Positions 2,832-6,701 of a DNA stretch of 6,701 nucleotides are shown here, piece by piece; position 1 is the first letter of the stretch, and each line of letters begins with the position of its first letter. The stretch is from contig MGQK01000049.1 in assembly GCA_001797815.1 (NCBI GenBank), forward strand, positions 4,120 to 10,820. The letters run 5' to 3'. The DNA is from Deltaproteobacteria bacterium RBG_13_61_14. GTDB lineage: Bacteria > RBG-13-61-14. The position numbers and the translations under genes are program-made. The notes beneath the pieces were generated by a model that was not told the origin of the DNA, did not search any database, and worked only from the letters and a program-made list of their open reading frames with translations.

Positions 2832-3293
2832 TTACCTTTTGATCGCTCTCCCCATCTCCCGCTCCAGCTCGCGGCGCTTGATATCCTGGCGGCGGTCGTA
2901 GATCTTCTTGCCTTTGGCCAGCCCGATCTCCACCTTGGCGATGCCCCGCTTGAAATACATACGGATCGGCACCAGGGTGTAGCCGCGCTCCTGGACCCTG
3001 CCCATCAGGCGCTTGAGCTCGCGTTTCTTGAGCAGGAGCTTGCGCGGCCGGCGCGGGGGATGGTTCCAGATGTTGCCGGCGCTGTAGGGCGCGATGTGGA
3101 GCCCGACCAGGAAGAGCTCCGGACCCTTGAAGCGGGCAAAGCTTTCCTTGAGGCTGACCCGGCCCTCGCGCAGGGACTTGACCTCGGTGCCCTTGAGCAC
3201 CAGCCCGGCCTCCACGCGCTCTTCCACCGCGAACTTGCGGTGGACTTCGCGGTTCAGGGCAATGGGTTTTTCACCTTCCGGTTTGGGCGACAT
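2832..3293 (-). CDS. smpB: SsrA (tmRNA)-binding protein SmpB
   Basis: Binds tmRNA and brings it to stalled ribosomes for trans-translation, which rescues the ribosome and tags the unfinished protein. At 153 residues it has the normal family length. Recognisable blocks are GLVLKGTEVKSLREG (30-44), NHPPRRPRKLLL (77-88) and VPIRMYFKRGIAKVEIG (108-124). The basic tail KGKKIYDRRQDIKRRE (127-142) enters the ribosomal mRNA channel in known SmpB proteins. The start is ATG at 3293, with only a weak GGTG-type ribosome site just upstream that is supplied by a repeat-like sequence. It lies 79 bases downstream of the MoxR gene on the same strand and may share its transcript. The tmRNA gene itself is not in this window. 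Confidence 0.97.
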   Translation of the reverse strand: MSPKPEGEKPIALNREVHRKFAVEERVEAGLVLKGTEVKSLREGRVSLKESFARFKGPELFLVGLHIAPYSAGNIWNHPPRRPRKLLLKKRELKRLMGRVQERGYTLVPIRMYFKRGIAKVEIGLAKGKKIYDRRQDIKRRELEREMGRAIKR

Positions 3294-3372: not shown

Positions 3373-4335
3373 TCAGTGCAGGAAGTCTTTGGCCGGGGCC
3401 GTTGCCGGCGCGTTGGCCGCGGCGCGTTTCTGTTCCAGGAATTGGGCGACTTCTTTTTGGGCCTTCTGGATATCGCCCTCGTATTTGAGGAGGAGGTTGA
3501 GGGTGTTCTGCACGGTCTCTTCGCCCAGGGTCTCGGCGTTGAGCAGGGTCAGCGCCCGGGCCCAGTCCAGGGTTTCGGAGATGGAGGGGAACTTTTTCAG
3601 GTCGAGCTGGCGCAGGCGTTGGACGAAGCTGACCACTTCTTTGGCCAGGGTCTCGGCGATGCCGGGCACTTTCAGGCGGACGATGCAGAGCTCCTGCTCG
3701 GCCGCGGGGAAATCGAGGTGAAGGTGGAGGCAGCGGCGCTTGAGGCCGTCGCTCATTTCCCGGGCGTTGTTGGAAGTGAGGACCACGTAGGGGATGTGCT
3801 TGGCCTTGAGCGTGCCGAGCTCGGGCACGCTCACCTGGAAGTCGGAGAGCACCTCCAGCAGGAAGGCCTCGAACTCGGGGTCGGACTTGTCCACCTCGTC
3901 AATCAAGAGCACGCAGGGCCGCTCCTGCTGGATGGCCCGCAACAGCGGCCGGGGCAGCAGGAACTTCTCGGAAAAAAAGACATCCTCCTGGGCCGAAATC
4001 CGCTCCACCGCCGCCTTGAGACCGCGGGCGTCCTCGAGCACCTCCCCGATCTTCTCCTTGAGGATCTGGGTGTAGAGCATCTGCTTGGCGTATTCCCATT
4101 CGTATAGGGCCTTCGCCTCGTCCAGCCCTTCGTAGCACTGCAGCCGGATCAGGTCCAGGCCCAGGGCCTGGGCCAGGACTTTGCCCAGCTCGGTCTTGCC
4201 CACCCCGGCCGGGCCTTCCACCAGGAGCGGCTTTTGCAGCCGGCAGGAGAGGAAGACCGAGGTGGCCACCCGCCGGGGGCAGAGGTAATTTTGTTCGCGG
4301 AAACGGCGTTCCACTTCTTCCGGCGAGTTGAACAT
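3373..4335 (-). CDS. MoxR-type AAA+ ATPase
   Basis: A cytoplasmic AAA+ ATPase of the MoxR group. Such proteins act as chaperone-like motors that mature or activate partner proteins, often together with a von Willebrand factor A protein. In the 320 residues, Walker A is GPAGVGKT (41-48), Walker B is LLIDEVD (143-149), sensor 1 is TSNN (187-190), and an arginine pair RR (200-201) fits the finger position. The region between Walker A and B has the long insertion seen in MoxR proteins. The C-terminus ends in an Ala/Pro-rich tail (about 304-320). The ATG at 4335 lies one base after the stop of the PocR-domain gene, so translation is probably coupled. A purine-rich AAAGG is present about 13 bases upstream. 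No VWA-domain gene, the usual MoxR companion, is present nearby, so the target of this ATPase is unknown. Confidence 0.9.
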   Translation of the reverse strand: MFNSPEEVERRFREQNYLCPRRVATSVFLSCRLQKPLLVEGPAGVGKTELGKVLAQALGLDLIRLQCYEGLDEAKALYEWEYAKQMLYTQILKEKIGEVLEDARGLKAAVERISAQEDVFFSEKFLLPRPLLRAIQQERPCVLLIDEVDKSDPEFEAFLLEVLSDFQVSVPELGTLKAKHIPYVVLTSNNAREMSDGLKRRCLHLHLDFPAAEQELCIVRLKVPGIAETLAKEVVSFVQRLRQLDLKKFPSISETLDWARALTLLNAETLGEETVQNTLNLLLKYEGDIQKAQKEVAQFLEQKRAAANAPATAPAKDFLH

Positions 4336-4336
4336 T

Positions 4337-4999
4337 TCAGAACAGGCCTTTCAGTTTGGCCAGGTTCTCCGTGTCCAGGAGCATGGCGGCGGGTTCTGCT
4401 TCCAGTTTTTTCAGCGCGGATTGCCGCGATTCCATGACGGCGTTCAGGTGCAGCCGGGTGGTGATCAGGCGCTTGGCGTTGACGAAGACGAACGCGTCCA
4501 GCGCCTTGGCCAGAAAGCGGACCGCATTTTTAAACAGTTCCGGGTCGAGCTGGGGCGCGCGTTCGGCAAAGCCCGAGAGGCTCTTCGCCTCTTTCTTCAG
4601 CTGGGGCTGGCTTTCCAGCAGGCGCTGGGGCGACCAGGGCCCGTCGCGATAAGGCCCCAGCACCACCCGGCCGATGAAATCGAACTGGTAGTTGAGCGGG
4701 AAAGCGGCGTATTTGAAGCCGCAGAAGCAGGTGGCCGCGTTCACGGTCGAGCCGGAGAGGGGCTGGGTGAGCAGGCGGTCCCGGGCCTCGGCGCAAAGCC
4801 GGCGGCCATCCTTAAGCCGGGCGACCTCCTCGCAAAAGCCGTTCGGCTCCAGGCTCTCGATCAGGGTCTGGCCGCTCTCGCTGGAGACCCGGAGCCCAAG
4901 GTGAAAGGCCTGGGTGAAGGCCTCGCACACCTCGCGGAAGACCGGGAGATCGAGGAGGTCGGTCAGGGTGATCCGCGGGTCGAGCATGGACTCGCTCAT
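4337..4999 (-). CDS. Stand-alone PocR-type sensory domain protein (220 aa)
   Basis: Contains a PocR-type ligand-binding domain, a PAS/GAF-like sensor module usually joined to an AraC regulator or histidine kinase. The domain spans about residues 10-180. It shows 'LTDLLDLPVFREVCEAFTQA' (12-31), a strand pair around LRVSSESGQTL (36-46), then the cysteine pattern FC (55-56), LC (68-69) and CFCGF (91-95). The typical AAFPLNYQFDFIGRVVLGPY (98-117) follows. After it come helices (about 151-205) that would normally lead into an output domain, but none follows. The open frame reaches up to 5167, but the start at 4999 is preferred. That ATG overlaps the GTPase stop as ATGA, and the extra 56 residues upstream are low-quality Arg/Pro-rich sequence lying over the GTPase gene. 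The ligand is unknown, and the clustered cysteines could bind metal or sense redox. The domain assignment rests on pattern recognition. Confidence 0.8.
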   Translation of the reverse strand: MSESMLDPRITLTDLLDLPVFREVCEAFTQAFHLGLRVSSESGQTLIESLEPNGFCEEVARLKDGRRLCAEARDRLLTQPLSGSTVNAATCFCGFKYAAFPLNYQFDFIGRVVLGPYRDGPWSPQRLLESQPQLKKEAKSLSGFAERAPQLDPELFKNAVRFLAKALDAFVFVNAKRLITTRLHLNAVMESRQSALKKLEAEPAAMLLDTENLAKLKGLF

Positions 5000-5709
5000 C
5001 GGGGTAAAGTGAAGCCGCCCGTCGAGACCAGGGCGGATTTCAGGCTGAGCAGGGACCGGATCTTGTCGGTGGTCAGGGCGGAGACTAAGTCCTGGACCTG
5101 GAAGCCGTATTTGCGGTCGAACTCGTATTTCTGGTTCAGGGAGTCGAAGGCCATCCGCATCAGGCACTCGAAGGTCTCGAACACCCCCTTGCCCTGGCTG
5201 GCGACAGCCGCTAAGGTGGGGAAGCGGCTCTGGCCCCAGTCGTGGCGGATCTCTTCCAGCGACTTGATCTGGTCGAGGTCGCGCTTGTTGAACTGGATCA
5301 CGATCGGGATCGCGTCAAAGTCAATCCCGTTGGCCTTGAGGTTCTCCTTCAGGTTCTTGAAGCTGATCGAGTTGCTGAGCGCCTGGCTCTTCTGCGAGTC
5401 GGCCACAAAGCTCACCGCGTCGGCCCCGGCCAGCACCGCCTTGCGGGTGGAGTTGTGGATCACCTGGCCGGGCACGGTGTAGAGCTTAACCTTGACCGAA
5501 AGGCCGGAAGGGGTCTTATACTGCAGCGGCAGCAGGTCAAAGAAGAGCGTCCGGTCGTTCTGCGTTTCCAGGCTCATCAGCCGGCCCCGGTGGTCCGGGC
5601 TGAACATCCCGTGCAACGCCTGCAGGTTGGTGGTCTTGCCCGACAAGGCCGGGCCGTAATAGACCAGCTTAACCGCCACTTCTTTAAACTCAAAATTCCA
5701 CTGAACCAC
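4996..5709 (-). CDS. MglA-like small Ras-family GTPase with C-terminal extension
   Basis: A GTP-binding switch protein related to MglA, the polarity and motility GTPase of Myxococcus and many other bacteria. With the proposed start it has 237 residues. Visible motifs are the P-loop GPALSGKTTNL (19-29), the MglA signature TLFFDLLP (54-61), VPGQ (79-82) in place of the eukaryotic DTAGQ, FVADSQ (101-106), NKRD (141-144) and the SAK-equivalent SQGKGVFETFE (171-181). MglA is usually about 195 residues, and here about 45 extra residues follow. A longer frame begins with ATG at 5754. GTG at 5709 is preferred because its first residue lines up with the start of known MglA proteins, as I recall them, and because AGGAGG lies 12 bases upstream. 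The stop overlaps the PocR-domain start. No roadblock-type MglB partner is encoded here. Confidence 0.88.
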   Translation of the reverse strand: MVQWNFEFKEVAVKLVYYGPALSGKTTNLQALHGMFSPDHRGRLMSLETQNDRTLFFDLLPLQYKTPSGLSVKVKLYTVPGQVIHNSTRKAVLAGADAVSFVADSQKSQALSNSISFKNLKENLKANGIDFDAIPIVIQFNKRDLDQIKSLEEIRHDWGQSRFPTLAAVASQGKGVFETFECLMRMAFDSLNQKYEFDRKYGFQVQDLVSALTTDKIRSLLSLKSALVSTGGFTLPR

Positions 5710-5803: not shown

Positions 5804-6493
5804 ATGAAAAGCAGCGCTCCGGCCACGGCCCTCCGCCTCCTGCTCGCTCTCGCCCTCGGGTTCTCCCTCGGCCGCTGCCAGGTGAAAACCCGGGCCGCGC
5901 CTCCCCCTTCGCCCCACCCCTATTTACCAATAGAGCCGGGAGGCGCCTGGACCTTGCAACTCACCCACTGGGAGTATCCTTCCCGGTTTGACTCGATGCC
6001 GCTGGTTTTTGCGCGGGAGGAGTTTTTCCGGATCGGCTCCATGGAGCAAAGGCCTGAAGGCTGGACCATCCGCACCGAGCCGGGGGTAGCATCTCTGCTG
6101 TTCCTGGGTGGTTTGGGCCTGGAACCGGCCGACCTGATCCAGGACAGCCAAGGCTTTTGGCTGAGAGAGCAGGCGAAAAAGAAAGACCCGGGCGTGCTCT
6201 TGCTCCCGGCCTCGCCGAGCGCGGGCCAGACCTGGTCCGCCCCGGCGCCCACCGGCATCGAAGTCCAGTGCCGGGTGCTGACCCTGGGCGAGCCTTTTTC
6301 CGCCGGAACAAGGATCGAAGTCCCCGACGCGCTCGCCCTGGAAATCAATTTTCAATCCGAGGGCCAGGCCGAGCGCCGGGTGCTGTGGCTCGGCCGCGGG
6401 CTCGGTCCCCTCTCGCTCGAAGCCTACACCGGCCCCCGCCTCCTGGACCAATGGCAGCGGACCGATCTTTATCCCTTTATCCGGCAGCCTTGA
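5804..6493 (+). CDS. Secreted protein of unknown function, possibly a lipoprotein
   Basis: The 229 residues begin with a clear signal sequence: Lys and Arg at 2 and 11, then the hydrophobic core LLLALALGFSLG (12-23) and Cys25. The sequence before that cysteine (LGR) is not a good lipobox because Arg stands at -1, so lipidation is doubtful. A proline-rich linker (32-39) follows. The mature part starts with YLPIEPGGAWTLQ (40-52), has GQTWSA (141-146), and ends near VLWLGRGLGPLSLEAY (193-208). The order of these three blocks resembles a loosely defined group of envelope beta-rich proteins with 'YFPL..GN.WTY' at the front and 'W.ApGvGlV' at the end. Their function is unknown. It is transcribed divergently from the GTPase gene and convergently with the transporter fragment. 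The ATG at 5804 has no strong ribosome site. I do not recognise a specific role. Confidence 0.75.
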   Translation: MKSSAPATALRLLLALALGFSLGRCQVKTRAAPPPSPHPYLPIEPGGAWTLQLTHWEYPSRFDSMPLVFAREEFFRIGSMEQRPEGWTIRTEPGVASLLFLGGLGLEPADLIQDSQGFWLREQAKKKDPGVLLLPASPSAGQTWSAPAPTGIEVQCRVLTLGEPFSAGTRIEVPDALALEINFQSEGQAERRVLWLGRGLGPLSLEAYTGPRLLDQWQRTDLYPFIRQP

Positions 6494-6528
6494 TCTTCCC
6501 GCCGGCAGGATGCTCGCGAGCCTTATTT

Positions 6529-6701
6529 TTAAGCGACAAACTCTTCTTCGCGCAGGGTGGGGAATCCGAAGGCGAGGCCTATTGCCACGATCTCCGGCAT
6601 TCGGAGCGAGGCCTGCTTCAATAGCTCGACCTGGCTGAGGGCCTGCCGGGTGGACCCGTCAAAAAGGATCCGGCCGCCGGCCATGAGCAGGGTGCGGCGG
6701 G
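6529..6701 (-). CDS. C-terminal end of an ECF/CbiO-type ABC transporter ATPase (partial)
   Basis: Enters from the right edge on the - strand and ends with TAA at 6529-6531, giving 56 visible residues. The sequence has the pattern MAGGRILFDGSTRQALSQVE (6-25), LLKQASLRMPEIVAIG (26-41) and a final TLREEEF. This matches the tail of EcfA/CbiO ATPases of energy-coupling-factor importers (cobalt, nickel, biotin, other vitamins). In those proteins a 'gri..dG.p.evf..velL...gl..P' region follows the switch histidine, and the domain then ends with 'lt.ee'. The nucleotide-binding motifs lie outside the window, so the call depends on this tail alone. The gene is convergent with the secreted-protein gene, with 35 bases between the two stops. 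Confidence 0.7.
   Translation of the reverse strand, partial: RRTLLMAGGRILFDGSTRQALSQVELLKQASLRMPEIVAIGLAFGFPTLREEEFVA

Follow-up and report, generated by a model that had tools for sequence, protein, structure and literature searches.

The closest described counterparts of the arrangement considered here are the actinobacterial conservons (AGPS). These operons combine: a sensor kinase, CvnA; a roadblock protein, CvnB; CvnC; and a Group 2 GTPase of the MglA family, CvnD. CvnF, a GAF protein, is an accessory component. A second point of comparison is the MglA-MglB polarity module, in which a GTPase of the same family is coupled to MglB. The third is SofG of Myxococcus xanthus, which we take to be MXAN_6703; together with the bactofilin BacP, SofG positions the type IV pilus motors PilB and PilT. 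For the PocR family, the proposed role is ligand binding. Regulation of SofG is unsettled, and the literature disagrees on whether MglB acts upon it: MglB is stated to be a GAP for SofG in one account (PMC11016934) and not to be one in another (PMC4316618).

Here, a window of 6,701 nucleotides (the whole stretch of DNA analysed), from contig C49 of the 4.74-Mb draft genome (G000) of Deltaproteobacteria bacterium RBG_13_61_14, encodes an MglA-family GTPase followed by a PocR-domain protein and a MoxR-type ATPase. With the conservons it shares an operon that joins an MglA-family GTPase to a sensor kinase or to a separate GAF-like sensor protein. Unlike the conservons, the window lacks a roadblock gene and CvnC, its GTPase is of Group 1 rather than Group 2, the sensor is PocR rather than CvnF, and the phyla differ. 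With SofG of M. xanthus the likeness extends to: the orthologous GTPase branch; the TVPGQ motif, arginine finger and C-terminal extension; and a PocR gene directly 3' with an ATGA overlap. The differences are that HisKA and HATPase domains are present in the M. xanthus PocR protein but not in that of the window, and that the window GTPase does not adjoin PilT genes.

Organization of the locus

The cassette and its flanking housekeeping gene comprise the following features.

4996..5709, minus strand: SofG-type small GTPase (MglA family, Group 1), 237 aa; GTG start, C-terminal extension
4337..4999, minus strand: stand-alone PocR-domain protein, 220 aa; PocR domain followed by a single long C-terminal helix
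3373..4335, minus strand: MoxR/CoxD-like AAA+ ATPase (NCBIfam MadB-like), 320 aa; third in the transcription unit by position
2832..3293, minus strand: SmpB, flanking housekeeping gene, 79 bp 3' of the ATPase gene

Transcription of the cassette, all on the minus strand, runs from the GTPase through PocR to the AAA+ gene. The GTPase gene ends and the PocR gene begins within a shared ATGA, and a single base (position 4336) lies between the PocR stop and the ATPase start. Re-reading of the sequence confirmed all of these points as given in a preliminary description of the locus: the gene trio, its coordinates and family calls, the overlap and the 1-base gap. The absence of the partners expected at the locus was likewise borne out, in that the window contains no roadblock gene and the PocR protein has no output domain. 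Scans for promoters and terminators across the cassette gave no signal above chance. A role in anti-phage defence was considered and dropped, as PADLOC returned weak generic AAA matches only.

Two further genes occupy the remainder of the window. One is a divergent, possible lipoprotein gene (5804-6493, plus strand) with a signal-like start and LGRC, and with no Pfam or NCBIfam match. The other is a partial ABC transporter ATPase gene, represented by its C-terminal end (6494-6701, minus strand; L033 10737-12167, in a cobalt/ECF-like arrangement).

The GTPase is of the SofG type

By sequence, the window GTPase is of the SofG type, an established orphan of MglB. This assignment follows from the Group 1 motifs, the tree branch, and the 239-aa M. 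xanthus orthologue with its neighbours. The GTG start is backed by an alignment in which the orthologues start with MVQ, and AGGAGG is visible upstream. The protein contains: GPALSGKT at G1; the arginine finger R53; TVPGQ at G3; and NKRD at G4. The hallmarks of MglA Group 1 are TVPGQ in G3 and an arginine finger before the G2 threonine (Wuichet and Sogaard-Andersen, PMC4316618); both T78-V-P-G-Q82 and R53-T54 are invariant in the GTPase alignment, which places the protein in this group. Its structurally solved relatives, by sequence, are MglA proteins.

In a tree of 70 MglA-family GTPases built by a quick method, the branch of the window protein also holds the M. xanthus SofG-type copy (99% SH-aLRT) and is separate from 21 other sampled members, including the genome's own MglA. 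In M. xanthus AM003 the MglA family comprises three genes, encoding proteins of 195 aa (adjoining mglB), 372 aa and 239 aa. The orthologue of the window GTPase is the 239-aa gene, the sole one of the three with the length given for SofG (PMC4316618). It adjoins two PilT-type genes and a GNAT gene, and MXAN_6704 is a GNAT (PMC4048283).

On contig C77, the genome also encodes a second, ordinary MglA immediately preceded by a roadblock (MglB-like) gene; contig C12 has a weaker roadblock match. No MglB gene lies within four genes of the window GTPase, and contig C49 contains no roadblock match. An ordinary MglA deprived of its MglB was rejected as an identity for the window GTPase on two counts, the tree and the presence of a distinct mglB-mglA pair on contig C77. 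If MglB does serve SofG, no new regulator is needed, which counts against PocR as the partner.

The genome's third MglA-family GTPase, on contig C107 (L043 8000-8938), has a long low-complexity C-terminal tail, broken by a short N run. It lies downstream of a long acidic protein, and comparable pairs occur in other genomes (L155, L162 and L165).

The GTPase-PocR pair is conserved

A GTPase scan of named genomes yielded 80 SofG-type loci, mostly from Myxococcota, and PocR neighbours were detected with an HMM grown from the window PocR protein. A full PocR domain is encoded directly 3' of the GTPase in 69 of the 80. Ten further loci gave a weak PocR match; in the five that were scanned with Pfam, the gene encodes a histidine kinase with no PocR match, which counts against PocR as the partner. 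L049 alone has neither a full nor a weak match beside its GTPase. In 57 of 79 loci, the downstream gene starts 4 bases inside the GTPase gene, forming the ATGA overlap. Beside other MglA-family GTPases, a PocR gene was found at none of 54 control loci, many of which span only 1.5 kb per side. Among the loci compared, the PocR neighbour is specific to the SofG branch.

Six additional SofG-type GTPases, in other families, were inspected in a wider sample of 386 genomes. The next gene encodes a PocR protein extended by a long C-terminal part in three cases and a kinase with a smaller sensor part in two, and is cut off at a contig end in the sixth. Also counting against a PocR partner, no PocR domain was found genome-wide in L049 or G058, both of which have a SofG-type GTPase.

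Taken in aggregate, these neighbourhoods support the earlier proposal that the PocR protein is a regulator or effector of the GTPase, to the extent that it is a plausible partner in MglB's place and that the pair forms a conserved unit. The expectation that the adjacency would be conserved in relatives thus holds for the GTPase and PocR genes; it fails for the ATPase.

In the literature searched, no work joining PocR to a motility MglA was found, the two matches being Salmonella expression studies. Nor was a PocR partner of SofG found, in a search that did not cover the original SofG paper or the supplements of the GTPase survey. In the literature searched there is apparently no description of the PocR kinase adjacent to SofG in M. 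xanthus.

Two observations on individual loci are recorded here. The SofG cluster of M. xanthus AM003 (L119 2099-8225) contains two PilT-type genes, the GNAT gene (MXAN_6704, developmental mutant) and the PocR kinase. In Aliikangiella (Kangiellaceae; L117 and L087), gammaproteobacterial SofG-type GTPases are followed by a histidine kinase with no recognisable PocR domain; these GTPases form a long tree branch, possibly reflecting horizontal transfer.

A PocR protein without its kinase

The window protein matches Pfam PF10114 (3e-16; 60 bits against a cut-off of 23.9; positions 1-156 of 162) and contains the sole PocR domain found in the genome. HisKA and HATPase_c are absent after this domain, the protein ending at the HisKA boundary: it terminates in LAKLKGLF, where the M. 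xanthus protein continues LDRLKSTFLGTVSHELRTP. At least 200 residues extend beyond the PocR domain in 68 of 71 complete PocR proteins, and those scanned carry HisKA and HATPase_c. The kinase-less form accounts for the other three, from this genome and two order-mates (G001 and G002). The preliminary description was correct that the window protein lacks an output domain; it missed that nearly all relatives have a histidine kinase as output, so that only this lineage shows the form without one. It also missed that the GTPase falls in the SofG branch. Since separate branches carry the kinase, its loss in this lineage, rather than its gain elsewhere, is the simpler reading, in a tree that does not settle the direction.

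A rival reading is that the PocR gene is a decaying remnant of a lost histidine kinase, kept only as an operon spacer. Such a remnant might end exactly where the kinase would begin, as this protein does, and the PocR protein evolves faster than the GTPase (32% versus 65% identity between the window and L034). However, the frame is open in three genomes, and a comparison of the PocR genes of the two order-mates gives dN 0.24 and dS 1.0 (dN/dS about 0.24), which shows purifying selection. The kinase-less proteins also retain the invariant residues Y97, G110, G115 and P116, the helix residues T180, H184, K217 and F220, and the ATGA overlap, and the modelled protein folds confidently. Decay is therefore considered very improbable.

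The main rival to direct contact with the GTPase is that the PocR protein acts in trans on a kinase encoded elsewhere, with the GTPase downstream of that kinase and not touching PocR. In nearly all relatives, PocR and a kinase form a single fused protein, and G000 contains 19 matches to the kinase half of the M. xanthus protein. There is also precedent in Streptomyces conservons: the GAF-type accessory CvnF8 stimulates the kinase CvnA8, and CvnF proteins occur where the partner kinase has no sensor of its own (PMC13343842). Against this, no kinase gene lies beside the GTPase-PocR pair in G000, G001 or G002, and the closest kinase in G000 (contig C56, 45% identity) is a membrane kinase that possesses both an N-terminal part and a response regulator of its own. 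The idea that the kinase was split off and now lies at another site in the genome was rejected, as this best candidate looks like an independent two-component unit. Action in trans is thus judged unlikely.

Fold and interface models

The AF2 model of the PocR protein has a pLDDT of 91.9 and a pTM of 0.80. Its layout is: helices; two strands; two helices; three strands; and a 67-residue helix spanning residues 153-219. In VIA-align, the model aligns with M. xanthus MglC (Z 10.4) and MglB (Z 10.3), and also with Rag and Ragulator subunits, these roadblock scores being tied with the CodY GAF and IclR-type domains. Foldseek prefers CodY. Profile comparison found no homology between PocR and MglB/roadblock (hhalign probability 0.4%), the window contains no Robl match, and a sequence search found no PDB relatives of the PocR protein. 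PocR as a sequence relative of roadblock was accordingly rejected.

A resemblance in fold with no sequence homology suggests a common fold class for PocR and the roadblock/GAF proteins, not family membership, yet makes an MglB-like role structurally possible on the basis of the model. The comparison with the MglA-MglB module is then as follows: the GTPase family is the same, and the PocR model appears to share a fold class with MglB and MglC (Z about 10); the window differs in having no coupled MglB, no profile homology to it, and a long helix added to PocR.

Modelling of the GTPase-PocR complex had been proposed as a check in the preliminary description. A linked model, with neither a PocR dimer nor nucleotide, reached a pTM of 0.53 with no confident interface, which counts against direct contact as far as a model of this composition goes. 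For this model, the two neighbouring L058 genes, naturally in frame with each other, were translated as one across the intervening stop codon, a device of modelling and not a claim of read-through. That PocR serves SofG-type GTPases as their cognate regulator (GAP or GEF), as a roadblock-like dimer replacing MglB in a ligand-dependent cycle with the kinase as an optional output, is regarded as doubtful.

The MoxR-type ATPase is probably a neighbour

The ATPase matches AAA domains and the NCBIfam model 'MadB family AAA-type ATPase' (NF047784), scoring 345 bits where the curated cut-off is 475. Nothing relevant on MadB as an AAA ATPase turned up in the literature searched. About ten other sampled genomes contain strong relatives, mostly adjoining a VWA-CoxE gene; the two are adjacent in G058, G050, G049, G026, G016, G022, G034 and L049. 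In its ATPase type, the window gene resembles the MoxR-VWA chaperone pairs (CoxD-CoxE, NCBIfam MadB), and a VWA-CoxE protein to match is encoded in the genome. It differs in that the two genes are on separate contigs, the VWA-CoxE homologue lying on contig C56 and hence not adjoining the ATPase.

The preliminary description had treated the three genes as one unit, in which the ATPase would remodel the GTPase-PocR complex. The 1-base gap in the window favours such a machine. So do two SofG-type loci of another lineage, with the ATPase and VWA genes a few genes 3' of the GTPase, a placement that chance would rarely produce in a genome of that size. In L049 (6001-10566), RibBA, the MoxR-type ATPase and VWA-CoxE are encoded within a few genes 3' of the GTPase; the same order recurs in G058 (contigs C148 and C61, seen as L036 and L129, with near-identical contig ends). 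However, both loci lack PocR. The order-mates G001 and G002 retain the GTPase-PocR pair but have neither the ATPase nor its VWA partner, and the ATPase is not near the GTPase in 79 of the 80 other loci; its usual neighbour, in the eight genomes or loci named above, is VWA-CoxE. The three-gene unit as a conserved entity was rejected on these gene neighbourhoods, and a three-gene machine is considered improbable. Proximity of ATPase and SofG in L049 and G058, with no PocR, means that a link between them is not zero, but that the ATPase stands outside the conserved unit. It probably adjoins the core pair without belonging to it, and is read as a MoxR-VWA chaperone subunit sharing the transcript.

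Proposed mechanism and significance

The explanation preferred here, and held to be marginally probable, is a two-gene signalling unit in which a PocR dimer is the ligand-controlled partner of the SofG-type GTPase; direct binding is inferred. The PocR protein would dimerise through its long C-terminal helix, and its PocR domain would bind a small ligand. The protein would touch the GTPase directly, setting either its GTP/GDP state or its cellular location. In Myxococcota, the attached kinase would tie the unit to a phosphorelay; in the window lineage, the GTPase would be the sole output at the locus. If the unit resembles M. xanthus SofG in this respect, that output would be the placement of PilB/PilT pilus motors, of which the genome encodes several copies. 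Besides one bactofilin, the candidate targets are five PilT-family genes that exceed the cut-off and several pilus-type ATPase genes of more distant similarity.

Because the kinase half is missing here, the PocR sensor is the best candidate for the missing regulator of SofG. A conserved PocR neighbour that is kinase-free in this lineage suggests that the PocR half is the part that matters to the GTPase. This makes control of a bacterial Ras-like switch by a metabolite sensor directly testable in M. xanthus, and extends the G-protein/sensor-kinase operons beyond the actinobacterial conservons.
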